This document shows, piece after piece, positions 14,964 through 50,232 of a DNA stretch of 64,000 bases (positions are counted from its first letter, which is position 1; every line of letters starts with the position of its first letter). The position numbers and the translations under genes were made by a program. The notes beneath the pieces were generated by a model that did no database searches, was not told the origin of the DNA, and saw only the letters and a list, made by a program, of their open reading frames with translations. Origin of the DNA: Colwellia polaris (GTDB taxonomy: Bacteria > Pseudomonadota > Gammaproteobacteria > Enterobacterales > Alteromonadaceae); contig NZ_NBOE01000014.1 of assembly GCF_002104515.1 (NCBI RefSeq), positions 62,001 through 126,000 of the forward strand. The letters run 5' to 3'.

Positions 14964-15302
14964 TTAGCATTGTACTTGGCGTTTGTCGCGAGCAACCAAC
15001 CAAATTGCACCAGCGATTAAAAATATAGGCCAAAAAACACCAAGTAATAACATAGCGCCACCGCCTATTACTAACATGGCAATAAAAATTAATGTACCAA
15101 ATACACTCATAGCTATCGCCAAGGCTACTAGAACAAGCAATACAACCACTAATGCTGAAAAACTTATCGCTTTTAAAGGCTCGATTACTTCTGCATCCAT
15201 GTAAATGTCTACATTAAGTAACTCCATAAAGCTAACACCTAAAGCATAGGTTAAAAACAGGGTCGCAAAAATAGCTAAACACAGTGATTTAAAAAATGAC
15301 AT
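14964..15302 (-). CDS. Small polytopic membrane protein in the psp-type operon
   Basis: This 112-residue, very hydrophobic protein has an N-terminal helix (about 5-25) and two or three more between residues 47 and 103 (AISFSALVVVLLVLVALAIA, then a glycine-rich GGGAMLLLGVFWP segment). It ends in a basic tail (ARDKRQVQC). I do not recognise a named family. It lies 29 bases downstream of the PspC gene on the same strand, which suggests a role in the envelope-stress response encoded there. That is inference from position only. Confidence 0.75.
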   Translation of the reverse strand: MSFFKSLCLAIFATLFLTYALGVSFMELLNVDIYMDAEVIEPLKAISFSALVVVLLVLVALAIAMSVFGTLIFIAMLVIGGGAMLLLGVFWPIFLIAGAIWLVARDKRQVQC

Positions 15303-15331: not shown

Positions 15332-15544
15332 TTAAGCTTTATTAGGTATTAATAATGAAGCAACAACATAAGCAACCCCAGTGGCTACCGGAAACATTAA
15401 TAAAGCAAATATAGCTCCAAGCCTTACCGCCAGACGCGGCAGTTCGTAATGTCTTGCAATACCACCACAAACACCTGACAATTTTTTATTTACTCGGTCT
15501 TTAGTTAACGTTTTATGCACTGAATATTCTCGTTGGTAACTCAT
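15332..15544 (-). CDS. pspC: PspC domain envelope-stress protein
   Basis: This 70-residue protein is essentially a bare PspC domain. It has the LSGVCGGIARHYELPRLAVR signature, then one hydrophobic helix (IFALLMFPVATGVAYVVASL). In enterobacteria PspC is an inner-membrane partner of PspA that relays envelope stress. This protein is much shorter than E. coli PspC (about 119 residues) and lacks its C-terminal periplasmic part. No pspB is found beside it. It lies between pspA and the 112-residue membrane protein, all on the minus strand. Confidence 0.88.
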   Translation of the reverse strand: MSYQREYSVHKTLTKDRVNKKLSGVCGGIARHYELPRLAVRLGAIFALLMFPVATGVAYVVASLLIPNKA

Positions 15545-15620: not shown

Positions 15621-15645
15621 ACGGGTGCCTTTATATAACACCCGT
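15621..15645 (-). other. Intercistronic hairpin between pspA and pspC
   Basis: ACGGGTG (15621-15627) and CACCCGT (15639-15645) form a perfect 7-bp stem, 9 bases after the pspA stop. No T-run follows on the minus strand. It looks more like an attenuator or an RNA-processing/stability hairpin than a full terminator, and could set PspA well above PspC. Confidence 0.45.
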
Positions 15646-16329: not shown

Positions 16330-16623
16330 TTAATACTTCGTCGTTTGTGGTTTTGATAAATTTGATTTCTTTGGCTCAACAACAGCAGCTAACTCTTGAG
16401 TTTCTTCAGTGCTGAACTTCATTGAAAATCGATTTAACTCAGCTTTGATTGAATGCGATAACTCTGCAGATAAATCATGAAGCACTTTTTGTCCTTGTGC
16501 TTGTACTGTTGCTGCTAAGCTTTTTTCTAGTGACACTTCTTGTGCAGAAGTAGTAGCTGTAAGTAGCAACGTACAAGATAATAAAACGGTGCTTAATATG
16601 TGTTTAGTTTGTAATAGTTTCAT
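16330..16623 (-). CDS. Small exported protein, first gene of the psp-type operon
   Basis: This 97-residue protein has a signal peptide (about residues 1-27, leader core HILSTVLLSCTLLLTATTSA with cleavage before QEVS). A short charged, probably helical periplasmic part follows (LSAELSHSIKAELNRFSMKF). No family is recognised. It ends 13 bases before pspA and is the first gene after the sigma-54-like promoter at 16696-16712. It is therefore likely co-induced with pspA under envelope stress. I infer a periplasmic accessory role, with no direct evidence for a specific function. Confidence 0.75.
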   Translation of the reverse strand: MKLLQTKHILSTVLLSCTLLLTATTSAQEVSLEKSLAATVQAQGQKVLHDLSAELSHSIKAELNRFSMKFSTEETQELAAVVEPKKSNLSKPQTTKY

Positions 16624-16695: not shown

Positions 16696-16712
16696 TACAA
16701 GTGCTGTGCCAA
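16696..16712 (-). promoter_or_regulatory. Sigma-54-type promoter of the psp operon
   Basis: On the minus strand the sequence reads TTGGCACAGCACTTGTA. This is a perfect -24 box (TGGCAC), a 5-base spacer and TTGT in place of the usual TTGC -12 box. It lies 73 bases before the first gene of the psp-type operon. In enterobacteria psp operons use sigma-54 with the activator PspF, which fits. No activator site was identified. Confidence 0.75.
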
Positions 16713-16995
16713 GAAATGAAAAAACCGTAAGTCACTGTTAATTAATAATTTAATAAAAACAGTGCTTGAATGAAAAAATAAGACATATTATGTCATACTA
16801 ATAATTGGTCAATTTTCACACATTAAATAGTGAAAATGACCAATTATATTTTTTAACTTTAGGGAAGGAAATTAGCATGAGTGGCTAAACTCTATTTAGC
16901 CGTTTTCAGGTCTATTTTTAATTTTTAATTTTTAAAACGACAAGTATTAGCTATGCTTTACTTATTGTATCTAGAAGCTGGAAGGTATTAGTTTT

Positions 16996-17859
16996 TTACT
17001 TTGAGGTGCTATCAACTTTTGTATTTGGTAAAGCTCCCCACTCACTCCAAGAGCCATCATATACTCGCACTGCTTGTGAACCAGTAATGTCTGCAGCTAG
17101 GGCTAATATACAGGCCGTAACACCTGAACCGCACGTCATGATCATAGCTTTATCTTCACGATTAATTTGCGTAAATATTTTTTTAAGTTCTTCTGCTGAC
17201 TTGAACAAGCCTTCTTTTAATAGGTCGCTGTAAGGTAAGTTTTTCGCATTTGGCATATGTCCACTTCGAACACCTGCACGAGGCTCTGCATCTAAGCCTT
17301 TAAATCTTCGGCTCCCCCTTGCATCAAGTATAAGATCCTCTTGAGATTGTGTTTGAGTTTCAACATATTGCCAATCACAAAAAAAACTATCCCGCTGGTT
17401 AGCAGTAAAGTCTCCTTCAACAATATTTTTAGTCATATTTGATGTTATAGATTCCTCTGTAGGCTTTTTCAGCTTTATCCACATAGGCAAGCCACCATCT
17501 AAAACAGCCACTTTTTTATGACCCATGGCTTTAAACATATACCAAGCCCGTGCGGCAGAAAACAACCCTAAATCATCATAAACCACAATCTGACTTTGCT
17601 GACTAATGCCTAGCCCTTTGGCTGCTTGCTCAAAATGTTCAATGCTCGGCATCGTGTGCGGAAGAGTACTGGTGGGATCTGAGAAGTCTTTATTTAAGTC
17701 GAAGTAACGAGCATTGGGAATGCTATAATCTGGCCAACTGTATTGTGGAGCAGCCATATTACCTATGGGTGGAATACTGGCATCGAGTATCACTAAGTCT
17801 TTGCTACCAAGTATTGCGTGTAAATCTACACAGGAAATTAATTGCTGAAAATTCATCAT
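16996..17859 (-). CDS. sseA: Two-domain rhodanese-type sulfurtransferase (3-mercaptopyruvate sulfurtransferase-like)
   Basis: This 287-residue protein has two rhodanese domains (about 8-130 and 160-280). The active-site loop is CGSGVTAC with the nucleophile at Cys243. The CGSGVT sequence is typical of 3-mercaptopyruvate sulfurtransferases, which transfer sulfane sulfur from mercaptopyruvate to thiols or cyanide. Plain thiosulfate rhodaneses carry a different loop. The N-terminal domain has the VVYDDLGLFSAARAWYMF stretch of the inactive repeat. An AGG 8 bases before the ATG supports the start. It is monocistronic between two sigma-54-like units. E. coli psp loci also carry a rhodanese (pspE), but PspE is a small single-domain protein, so equivalence is not implied. 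Confidence 0.9.
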   Translation of the reverse strand: MMNFQQLISCVDLHAILGSKDLVILDASIPPIGNMAAPQYSWPDYSIPNARYFDLNKDFSDPTSTLPHTMPSIEHFEQAAKGLGISQQSQIVVYDDLGLFSAARAWYMFKAMGHKKVAVLDGGLPMWIKLKKPTEESITSNMTKNIVEGDFTANQRDSFFCDWQYVETQTQSQEDLILDARGSRRFKGLDAEPRAGVRSGHMPNAKNLPYSDLLKEGLFKSAEELKKIFTQINREDKAMIMTCGSGVTACILALAADITGSQAVRVYDGSWSEWGALPNTKVDSTSK

Positions 17860-18049
17860 AAATTAAACCTAACTGAAATGTTCGGTAAATATATGCAAAA
17901 TTAGCTGAGTTCTGTAACAAAGTACAGTCGTTAACAAAAGGGAATTGGGTGTTGTGGGTCAAATAGAAATGTAAACAATGAGTCGAATTAAAAGCAAATT
18001 TAACGCTTAACTTTCGTTAATAGCGCACTTTAATAACGTAATAATACAA

Positions 18050-18084
18050 CCGCTAATGCTATCGAGTTCATATAGCAATAACGG
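18050..18084 (-). terminator. Hairpin directly after the 32-residue ORF
   Basis: A 13-bp stem with two mismatches (18050-18062 with 18072-18084) starts at the base following the stop codon of the small minus-strand ORF. A T-rich tail (TTGTATTATTA) follows. It looks like a modest terminator and supports the idea that the small ORF is its own transcription unit. Confidence 0.55.
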
Positions 18085-18183
18085 TTACTTTCCTTGCTCT
18101 AAATGAGCAACAATAAACGACGTGGCTAGCAAACAAATACTCGGTAACATAAACAGAGTAAATAAAATGGTTAAACTTGGCAT
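18085..18183 (-). CDS. Putative 32-residue single-helix membrane protein behind a sigma-54-like promoter
   Basis: The ORF encodes a 32-residue peptide that starts MPSLTILFTLFMLPSICLLA and ends VAHLEQGK. It has one continuous hydrophobic helix and a short charged tail. A good ribosome-binding site (AAAAGGA) lies 8 bases before the ATG. A sigma-54-like promoter almost identical to that of the psp operon lies 71 bases upstream, and a hairpin follows the stop codon directly. These four signals together make a real small gene likely. The shared promoter type suggests an envelope-stress microprotein, as an inference. It resembles no named protein I know. Confidence 0.6.
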   Translation of the reverse strand: MPSLTILFTLFMLPSICLLATSFIVAHLEQGK

Positions 18184-18253
18184 AACATCAATCCTTTTAA
18201 GCTATTTTGAGCGCGGCATTTAAAATGTGCTATTGGTTAAGTAGCGTAAACAG

Positions 18254-18272
18254 TTACAAAGGTTGTGCCAAA
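18254..18272 (-). promoter_or_regulatory. Second sigma-54-type promoter, before the 32-residue ORF
   Basis: The minus strand reads TTTGGCACAACCTTTGTAA: TGGCAC, 5-base spacer, TTGT, A. The -24 box, the spacer length and the unusual TTGTA -12 box all match the psp-operon promoter at 16696-16712. The start codon of the small ORF is 71 bases downstream, comparable to the 73 bases at the psp operon. Confidence 0.7.
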
Positions 18273-18479
18273 GATTGAAAAAACGATTAAACCATTGATT
18301 TAAAATGTTATTTATTTTATTCGTAAATAAATCAACAAGTATAAAAATATTAAAAAAACGCTGAAGTGGTTAAATTTACTAATTTATAGTGAGGTTTGTG
18401 CCAAAAAGCTTATAAAAGCAAAAGACGTTTATACTTTAAAAATTTCGATATTTAAGCGTAATGCTAAATTATAAAAACC

Positions 18480-18658: not shown

Positions 18659-19645
18659 CTAAATTAGGTTCAAATCAGGGTTAAGTTGCAAGACTTTCTC
18701 GAACGCTTGCTGCAACACTTCACCACCAACATTCTCGCCATTAGCATTTTCACTTAAATAACGTCGAAATTGCTTCGCCCCTGCCAAACCATTACATAAA
18801 CCAAGCATATGCCTAGCAACATGCCACGCTCTGCCACCGCTAGCAACGTGACGATCAACATATTCAATCATTTCATTTAGAACCACTTGGCGTGATTTTA
18901 TCTCAGTATTGGCCTGCCAAATTTCATTGTCGGCCTGGGTTAGCATATATGGATTTTGATAAACCTCACGACCAATCATTACCCCATCTAAATGTTGCAT
19001 ATGGTCATTTGCTTGTGCAAACGTTGTAATACCGCCATTAATAGAAATTTCAATGTTAGGAAAGTCTTGTTTAATTTGATAAACACGTTGGTAATCTAAA
19101 GGTGGAATATCTCTGTTTTGTTTAGGGCTTAAACCACTTAACCAAGCTTTACGCGCATGAATAATAAAATGCTGACACCCTGCTGCGCTAACCGTTGTTA
19201 AAAACTGGTGCAAAAATTCATAACTGTCGAGATCGTCAATACCAATACGAGATTTTACCGTTGTAGGAATCTTCGTTGCGTTTTGCATGCTGGCAACACA
19301 ATCAGCCACAAGTTGCGGTTCAGCCATTAAACAAGCACCAAACTTACCATTTTGCACACGATCTGACGGGCAACCAACATTAATGTTGATTTCATCATAG
19401 CCCTGCTGTTCAGCAATTTTTGCACATTCTGTCATCGCAGCAACATCACTACCACCAAGCTGCAATACCAAAGGATGCTCTGCTTCGTTATAAGCTAAAT
19501 AATTACCTTTACCATGCAATATTGCGCCTGTTGTTACCATTTCGGTATACAACACGGTTTGTTTTGACATTACGCGATAAAAATAACGGCAATGACGATC
19601 TGTCCAATCAAGCATAGGTGCAATGGAAAGTTTGTGAGAAATCAT
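18659..19645 (-). CDS. dusA: tRNA-dihydrouridine synthase A
   Basis: This 328-residue FMN enzyme reduces uridines 20/20a in the tRNA D-loop. The TIM barrel starts with LSIAPMLDWTDRHCRYFYR, the characteristic DusA opening. The catalytic cysteine is C92 in NVGCPSDRVQNG, followed by GACLM. The FMN/phosphate-binding segments ISINGGI and DGVMIGREVYQNPYML are present. The length matches DusA from other gammaproteobacteria. It is monocistronic on the minus strand. Confidence 0.96.
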   Translation of the reverse strand: MISHKLSIAPMLDWTDRHCRYFYRVMSKQTVLYTEMVTTGAILHGKGNYLAYNEAEHPLVLQLGGSDVAAMTECAKIAEQQGYDEININVGCPSDRVQNGKFGACLMAEPQLVADCVASMQNATKIPTTVKSRIGIDDLDSYEFLHQFLTTVSAAGCQHFIIHARKAWLSGLSPKQNRDIPPLDYQRVYQIKQDFPNIEISINGGITTFAQANDHMQHLDGVMIGREVYQNPYMLTQADNEIWQANTEIKSRQVVLNEMIEYVDRHVASGGRAWHVARHMLGLCNGLAGAKQFRRYLSENANGENVGGEVLQQAFEKVLQLNPDLNLI

Positions 19646-50072: not shown

Positions 50073-50232
50073 ATCTTCATAAAATGTTATGTGCTGTAAG
50101 GCTAGATGAAGTATTAACCAATAAAGCTCAGAGATAAACAAAGCAACCTGCTTGACATAATATGTCATACTTGCTACTTTGAATAAATCACTGTTAACCT
50201 TACATTAACAGTATTTAATCTTGGAGGTGGTA

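Follow-up and report, generated by a model that had tools for sequence, protein, structure and literature searches.

The locus described here raises the question of how a psp-type operon is controlled when no pspF gene lies beside it, and of what this operon shares with a very small reading frame that follows a near-identical promoter. Within the window, that is, the whole 64-kb stretch of DNA that was analysed, the pattern TTGGCAC-N5-TTGTA has two exact matches, both on the minus strand and here called P and D, compared with a mean of 0.02 and a maximum of 1 in 100 dinucleotide shuffles of the window. An initial annotation had pointed to these two motifs, each about 70 bases ahead of a start codon, as sigma-54 promoters that are probably co-regulated by PspF. 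The pair was correctly recognized, and the distances from the -12 box to the ATG are 71 and 72 bases; the coordinates given for P (16696-16712) are exact and those for D (18254-18272) were one base too wide on each side. The description of the TTGT -12 box as unusual did not hold, as the E. coli pspA promoter (TTGGCAC-GCAAA-TTGTA) and pspG promoter (TTGGCAT-GATTC-TTGTA) carry the same box, and TTGTA at -12 is a psp signature. Both P and D have the sigma-54 layout, with GG at -24 and the fixed spacing, GT replacing GC at -12.

The motif on its own has limits. At two mismatches the window contains 10 matches versus 9.28 expected, which is the chance level, so that only the exact pair is notable; and a scan of the whole genome (4.43 Mb in 28 contigs), which the annotation had proposed along with a search for pspF, gave three exact matches against two for a reversed control pattern, so that the pattern alone is not specific genome-wide. 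The third exact copy lies within a gene for an RcsF-family lipoprotein, on the opposite strand. The case for the promoters is made by position and conservation, not by the genome-wide pattern, and from it we consider it highly probable that P and D depend on sigma-54 and on activation by PspF and belong to an enlarged phage-shock regulon.

The gene content that had been read behind P, comprising a 97-aa exported protein, PspA, PspC and a membrane protein, is confirmed by reading frames and profile matches, as is the sulfurtransferase gene between the two units (Table 1). The genome encodes three PspA/IM30 proteins. PspA2 of the window is 51% identical to the canonical PspA, whose locus on contig C12 has pspF divergent from pspA, followed by pspB and pspC, and the third PspA gene adjoins a DUF2170 gene on contig C25 (L030). 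In the window operon there is no pspB-sized minus-strand reading frame between pspA2 and pspC2 and no adjacent pspF; the divergent pspF and the pspB that mark a canonical pspABC locus are found on C12, and the window holds a second, additional psp operon. The earlier remark that no pspF is adjacent was thus accurate, and a homologue is present as had been suspected, but the enterobacterial layout is not missing, as it stands on another contig. For the exported protein, structure prediction gave one long helix only (mean pLDDT 68.9, pTM 0.37), and the 112-aa membrane protein had no Pfam match up to E = 1. The identification of the latter as PspG is unsupported (profile probability 20.9%, over a short stretch), and that of the sulfurtransferase as PspE was rejected, the protein being SseA-like, 287 aa long, encoded outside the pspA2 operon and with no PspE model among its NCBIfam matches. 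A terminator-like hairpin, possibly an attenuator, lies between pspA2 and pspC2 (15621-15645).

Table 1. Coordinates of the features discussed; positions are those of the window unless a contig is named.
Feature	Position	Strand	Remarks
112-aa membrane protein, last gene of pspA2 operon	14964..15302	-	conserved in relatives
pspC2, 70-aa PspC-domain protein	15332..15544	-	PF04024, 54.9 bits
pspA2, second PspA of the genome	15654..16316	-	TIGR02977, 271.2 bits (cut-off 242.95)
97-aa exported protein, first gene of pspA2 operon	16330..16623	-	one predicted helix, preceded by a signal peptide (by reading)
P, sigma-54 -24/-12 promoter of pspA2 operon	16696..16712	-	TTGGCACAGCACTTGTA, exact match
Palindrome, putative operator of a second regulator	16782..16794		GACATATTATGTC; within P, between enhancer and promoter
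Weaker proximal enhancer-like site of P	16805..16821	-	at -109; 7.2 bits
Distal PspF-type enhancer of P	16827..16843	-	TTGGTCATTTTCACTAT; -131 from -24 box; 13.9 bits, rank 2 of 63984
SseA-like sulfurtransferase, 287 aa, between the two units	16996..17859	-	two rhodanese stretches
orf32, 32-aa putative single-span membrane protein in pspG position	18085..18183	-	RBS-like AAAAGGA before ATG (by reading)
D, sigma-54 -24/-12 promoter downstream of dusA	18255..18271	-	TTGGCACAACCTTTGTA
PspF-type enhancer of D	18366..18382	-	TTAGTAAATTTAACCAC; at -111; 19.6 bits, rank 1 of 63984 window positions
dusA, marker of the dusA-pspG position	18659..19645	-	PF01207, 310.7 bits
pspF	C12:435071-436111		553.1 bits (cut-off 443.55)
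DUF2884 promoter	L132 (G000:C2:125137-125153)		TTGGCAT-N5-TTGTA; enhancer-like site, 6.7 bits, at -109

Conservation was followed in 36 loci, those of the window and of 35 relatives (16 from its own genus); Colwellia and Cognaticolwellia are among the relatives and supply the closest named relatives of PspA2. The D and P sites of the relatives were chosen by hand from a list of sigma-54-like sites. By tblastn, 15 of the 16 genus relatives share the gene order dusA, orf32, sseA, exported gene, pspA2, pspC2 and membrane gene, and the exception, L076, has no orf32. The annotation had named non-conservation of the two -24/-12 pairs in close relatives as the outcome that would speak against its reading, and the pairs are conserved: all 17 genomes of the genus, counting the window, have P in its exact form, and 12 of them have D in its exact form; four more have D with one substitution, and D is absent from L076 alone, the sole genus genome that is also without orf32. 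When the genus sequences are aligned, all 17 columns of P are invariant, spacer included, versus 65 of 262 other columns, and 14 of the 17 columns of D are invariant versus 34 of 314 others in the 16 genomes having D. Across the full set of 36 loci, 23 have an exact P and the remainder a near match. Every one of these loci has a site with at least 13 of 15 for the -24/-12 elements upstream of pspA or its operon, and such a site stands behind dusA in 30 of the 32 loci having that gene. Seven further named genomes, taken from 68 named loci after 12 duplicates of sampled genomes and 49 distant loci (27-35% identity) were set aside, have P with its enhancer in seven cases and D in five.

The gene upstream of orf32, dusA, had been absent from the annotation, and it places D at a familiar site: its product is 62% identical to E. 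coli DusA, the E. coli gene order is dusA-pspG, and dusA lies beside pspG in four of six PspG-bearing relatives. PspG itself (PF09583) has no match in this genome, and it matches in 6 of the 98 genomes searched, own included. With only 32 aa and in the place of pspG, orf32 might be a decayed pspG or a spurious reading frame and D a relic, a scenario that is highly improbable in view of how the family varies. Its 21 aligned members, of 32-55 aa, share one invariant proline; the variable columns at the three codon positions number 13, 4 and 24 of 30 each; and codon differences are synonymous in 1052 cases versus 610 others (pairwise counts, uncorrected for relatedness), where random single changes would be synonymous at a frequency of 0.22. 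Judged by this codon pattern of purifying selection, orf32 is a conserved gene, which adds to the 32-aa membrane-protein frame originally noted behind the second promoter. Its identification as a remnant of PspG was rejected, profile comparison giving a probability of 0.9%. Between orf32 and sseA there is no terminator-like site among those predicted, and sseA may for this reason be read through from D.

In several other genera the psp-type promoter behind dusA precedes an exported protein and then a small protein, and a small protein directly after D is also seen in other genera (L082, L085, L087 and L088, for example). The exported family at D is homologous to that of the pspA2 operon (profile comparison 96.7%, E 3.5e-10). 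The simplest history would be that promoter and exported gene were duplicated together and that the exported gene was later lost at D in the genus of the window. Two loci, L091 and L097, have two D-like sites each; there the sigma-54 promoter, accompanied by an exported gene, recurs near dusA.

If D and P are indeed served by PspF, enhancers should resemble those of known PspF promoters. Upstream sites of the form TRGT-N7-RCYA recur in the relatives, mostly near -130 and -109 at P, with both present in several of them, and near -110 at D. When searched with a strict regular expression, 23 of the 30 D promoters and 29 of the 36 P promoters yield an enhancer; the P site of the window is missed. 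A matrix built from 38 sites of relatives, window excluded, places the enhancers of D and P at the first two ranks of the window, ranks that are partly circular as the matrix was trained on orthologous promoters; the independent part is the result in E. coli. There, the same matrix puts two sites of the pspF-pspA gap at ranks 1 and 2 of 6 kb, with a two-base overlap between one of them and the pspF start, and the dusA-pspG gap supplies the top site of another 6 kb; this transfer, a comparison between sequences, is the strongest evidence pointing to PspF. In the genome's own pspF-pspA1 gap the matrix site ranks first of 9 kb (12.1 bits). The pspA1 promoter there (L029, ~4267) has a conserved odd -12 box, TTGGCGC-N5-GTGAA or similar, though it lies beside pspF. 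Of the 13 window sites with a sigma-54-like score of at least 14, none but D and P lies within 170 bp of an enhancer that exceeds 10 bits, and in random 170-bp window stretches outside the locus 12 bits are reached with a frequency of 0.005. The P enhancer is hardly above the background maximum of the window, at 13.92 bits versus 13.88 for the third-ranked position (50705), which weakens the PspF reading very slightly.

The genome supplies the proteins that such promoters would need. RpoN is encoded (PF04552, 241.9 bits), and PspF shares 62% identity with its E. coli counterpart, retaining GAFTGA and much of the C-terminal HTH. Given that 13 strong sigma-54 activator domains are encoded, P and D might instead be sigma-54-dependent promoters that answer to another enhancer-binding protein of this genome; this is very unlikely, in that a single regulator scores above the PspF cut-off (553 bits, with 290 for the runner-up), the upstream sites match those ahead of pspA and pspG in E. 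coli, and the gene under control is a pspA. On these sequence comparisons the pspA2 operon is probably controlled in trans by PspF, and the co-regulation first suspected gains support from conservation, from the enhancers upstream of both promoters and from the presence of pspF and rpoN.

The loosened pattern TTGGCAYNNNNNTTGWA has six matches in the genome versus nine for the reversed control, so that on its own it is at the chance level. The six are P, D, the promoter of a DUF2884 gene and three sites inside genes of the chaperonin, CcmF and RcsF families; the three intragenic sites were rejected as further targets, having no strong enhancer. The DUF2884 product is an exported protein, and the sigma-54 box of its gene is conserved in the genus. 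Twenty presumed orthologous promoters were compared (17 of the genus and three others, own included), of which 19 score 15 of 15 on a loosened sigma-54 consensus and one scores 14. An enhancer of at least 6 bits precedes 17 of the 20, mostly near -109, and in the other three the best score is below 0 bits. These promoter sequences make the DUF2884 gene a likely further PspF target. We take yggN of E. coli to be a member of DUF2884. That gene stands in the sigma-E table of PMC2731931, which also states that PspF overproduction raised further E. coli genes.

A second element complicates the regulation of P. The palindrome GACATAWTATGTC is present in the P of 29 of 36 loci and in the D of none of 30, and within the genus it is nearly as conserved as the promoter. 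It occurs at seven places in the genome, the reversed control at none. Besides pspA2, it precedes an NfeD-SPFH unit (window 50154-50166), an NhaA-type antiporter and an M48 peptidase read as HtpX, with two sites before DUF2170-pspA3; it also precedes a putative lipoprotein and DUF350 unit, beside a gene that by eye is GlnE-like (loci elsewhere in the genome include L121, L122, L123 and L125). The set of pspA2, nfeD-SPFH, nhaA, htpX and DUF2170-pspA3 units is reminiscent of the Bacillus sigma-W regulon. Each genome of the genus (17 in all) carries 6-9 palindrome sites. Over 60 genomes, own included, at least one site is found in 32 and none in 28, with no control match in any of the 60. In four genomes of other families, searched by tblastn with the proteins of this genome, the palindrome lies near htpX and DUF2170/pspA3 in all four, near SPFH in three and near nhaA in two; 12 of the 26 palindrome regions in these genomes hold no query protein, and neither do 4 of 14 further hand-picked regions.

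The conservation of the palindrome at P within the genus and its occurrence at other envelope genes could mean that the pspA2 operon is driven mainly by the regulator of the palindrome, perhaps together with a vegetative promoter, PspF only adding to it. We regard this as unlikely, since every genome of the genus has the -24/-12 box of P unchanged, the palindrome never accompanies the promoter at D, and in L090 and L093-L098 a P-like promoter is retained but the palindrome is not. With PspF retained as the activator, we lean slightly towards the pspA2 promoter being a meeting point of PspF/sigma-54 and a second regulator at GACATAWTATGTC, which would control the htpX, nfeD-SPFH, nhaA, DUF2170-pspA3 and pspA2 units in several gammaproteobacterial families, the PspF arm using new periplasmic and single-span effectors. 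An Lrp/AsnC-type regulator (L121 827-1297) is divergent from nhaA with the palindrome between them, and by this position it is a candidate for the palindrome-binding protein. A full-text literature search for the palindrome 13-mers returned one unrelated plant match and no related one. According to PMC12802237, CpxR of E. coli and P. aeruginosa binds GTAAA-N5-GTAAA, a site unlike GACATAWTATGTC, and AmgRS regulates htpX in P. aeruginosa. AmgRS is accordingly a tentative lead for the palindrome regulator.

The following scenario can be proposed. In E. coli, PspF is kept inactive by PspA as long as the inner membrane is free of stress; once stress sets in, PspF drives sigma-54 polymerase from enhancers. 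Inner-membrane stress would likewise free PspF, encoded on the other contig beside the canonical pspABC genes, from PspA, and the freed PspF would bind the enhancers roughly 110-130 bp upstream of the -24 boxes and open sigma-54 RNA polymerase. Transcription from P would yield the exported helical protein, PspA2, the short PspC and the membrane protein, and that from D the 32-aa membrane protein, made from the chromosomal position of E. coli pspG. A likely consequence is that PspA1, PspA2, the exported helix protein, the small membrane protein and the DUF2884 protein would rise together, while a second regulator may act at the conserved palindrome of P.

In the relatives of Colwellia the PspF regulon is accordingly predicted, from promoter and enhancer sequences, to comprise at least four transcription units (pspA1, pspA2, orf32 and DUF2884). 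A literature search conducted mostly outside subscription journals found no report of pspA2, orf32 or DUF2884 as extra PspF targets. Three protein families with no Pfam match at cut-off become candidate effectors of the regulon; to judge from the dusA-linked position, a psp promoter may persist while the protein it drives is exchanged; and the second operator offers a route to the envelope-stress regulator behind the palindrome.

This returns us to the known systems. We take PA3732 of P. aeruginosa to be a DUF2170 protein. The bac cluster of that species, as described in PMC10948618, includes the PspA-like PA3731 and a proposed sigma-54 site, and is thus similar in being an additional PspA cluster with such a site; its likely counterpart here is the third PspA operon with DUF2170 (L030), which bears the palindrome. 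According to a comparative study (PMC11237479), pspF shares its promoter region with pspABC in most Gammaproteobacteria. The closest parallel is the E. coli PspF/sigma-54 regulon (pspF, pspABCDE and pspG), with which the present system shares the promoter box, the type of upstream site, a PspF orthologue, PspA and PspC, as well as a psp promoter behind dusA that precedes the gene of a small membrane protein. In E. coli the pspA promoter has two enhancers and that of pspG a single one (PMC3709507); here there are two at P, one of them weak, and one at D. The genome differs from that of E. coli in having a pair of such PspA operons, genes for exported helical proteins in first place, a window operon that lacks pspB, no Pfam match to PspG and an additional DUF2884 target. 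In orf32 likeness and difference meet: like PspG (PF09583), it encodes a small membrane protein directly behind dusA and under a psp-type sigma-54 promoter, but it is non-homologous by profile and has 32-55 aa and one likely span, versus about 69-80 aa in the PspG proteins aligned.
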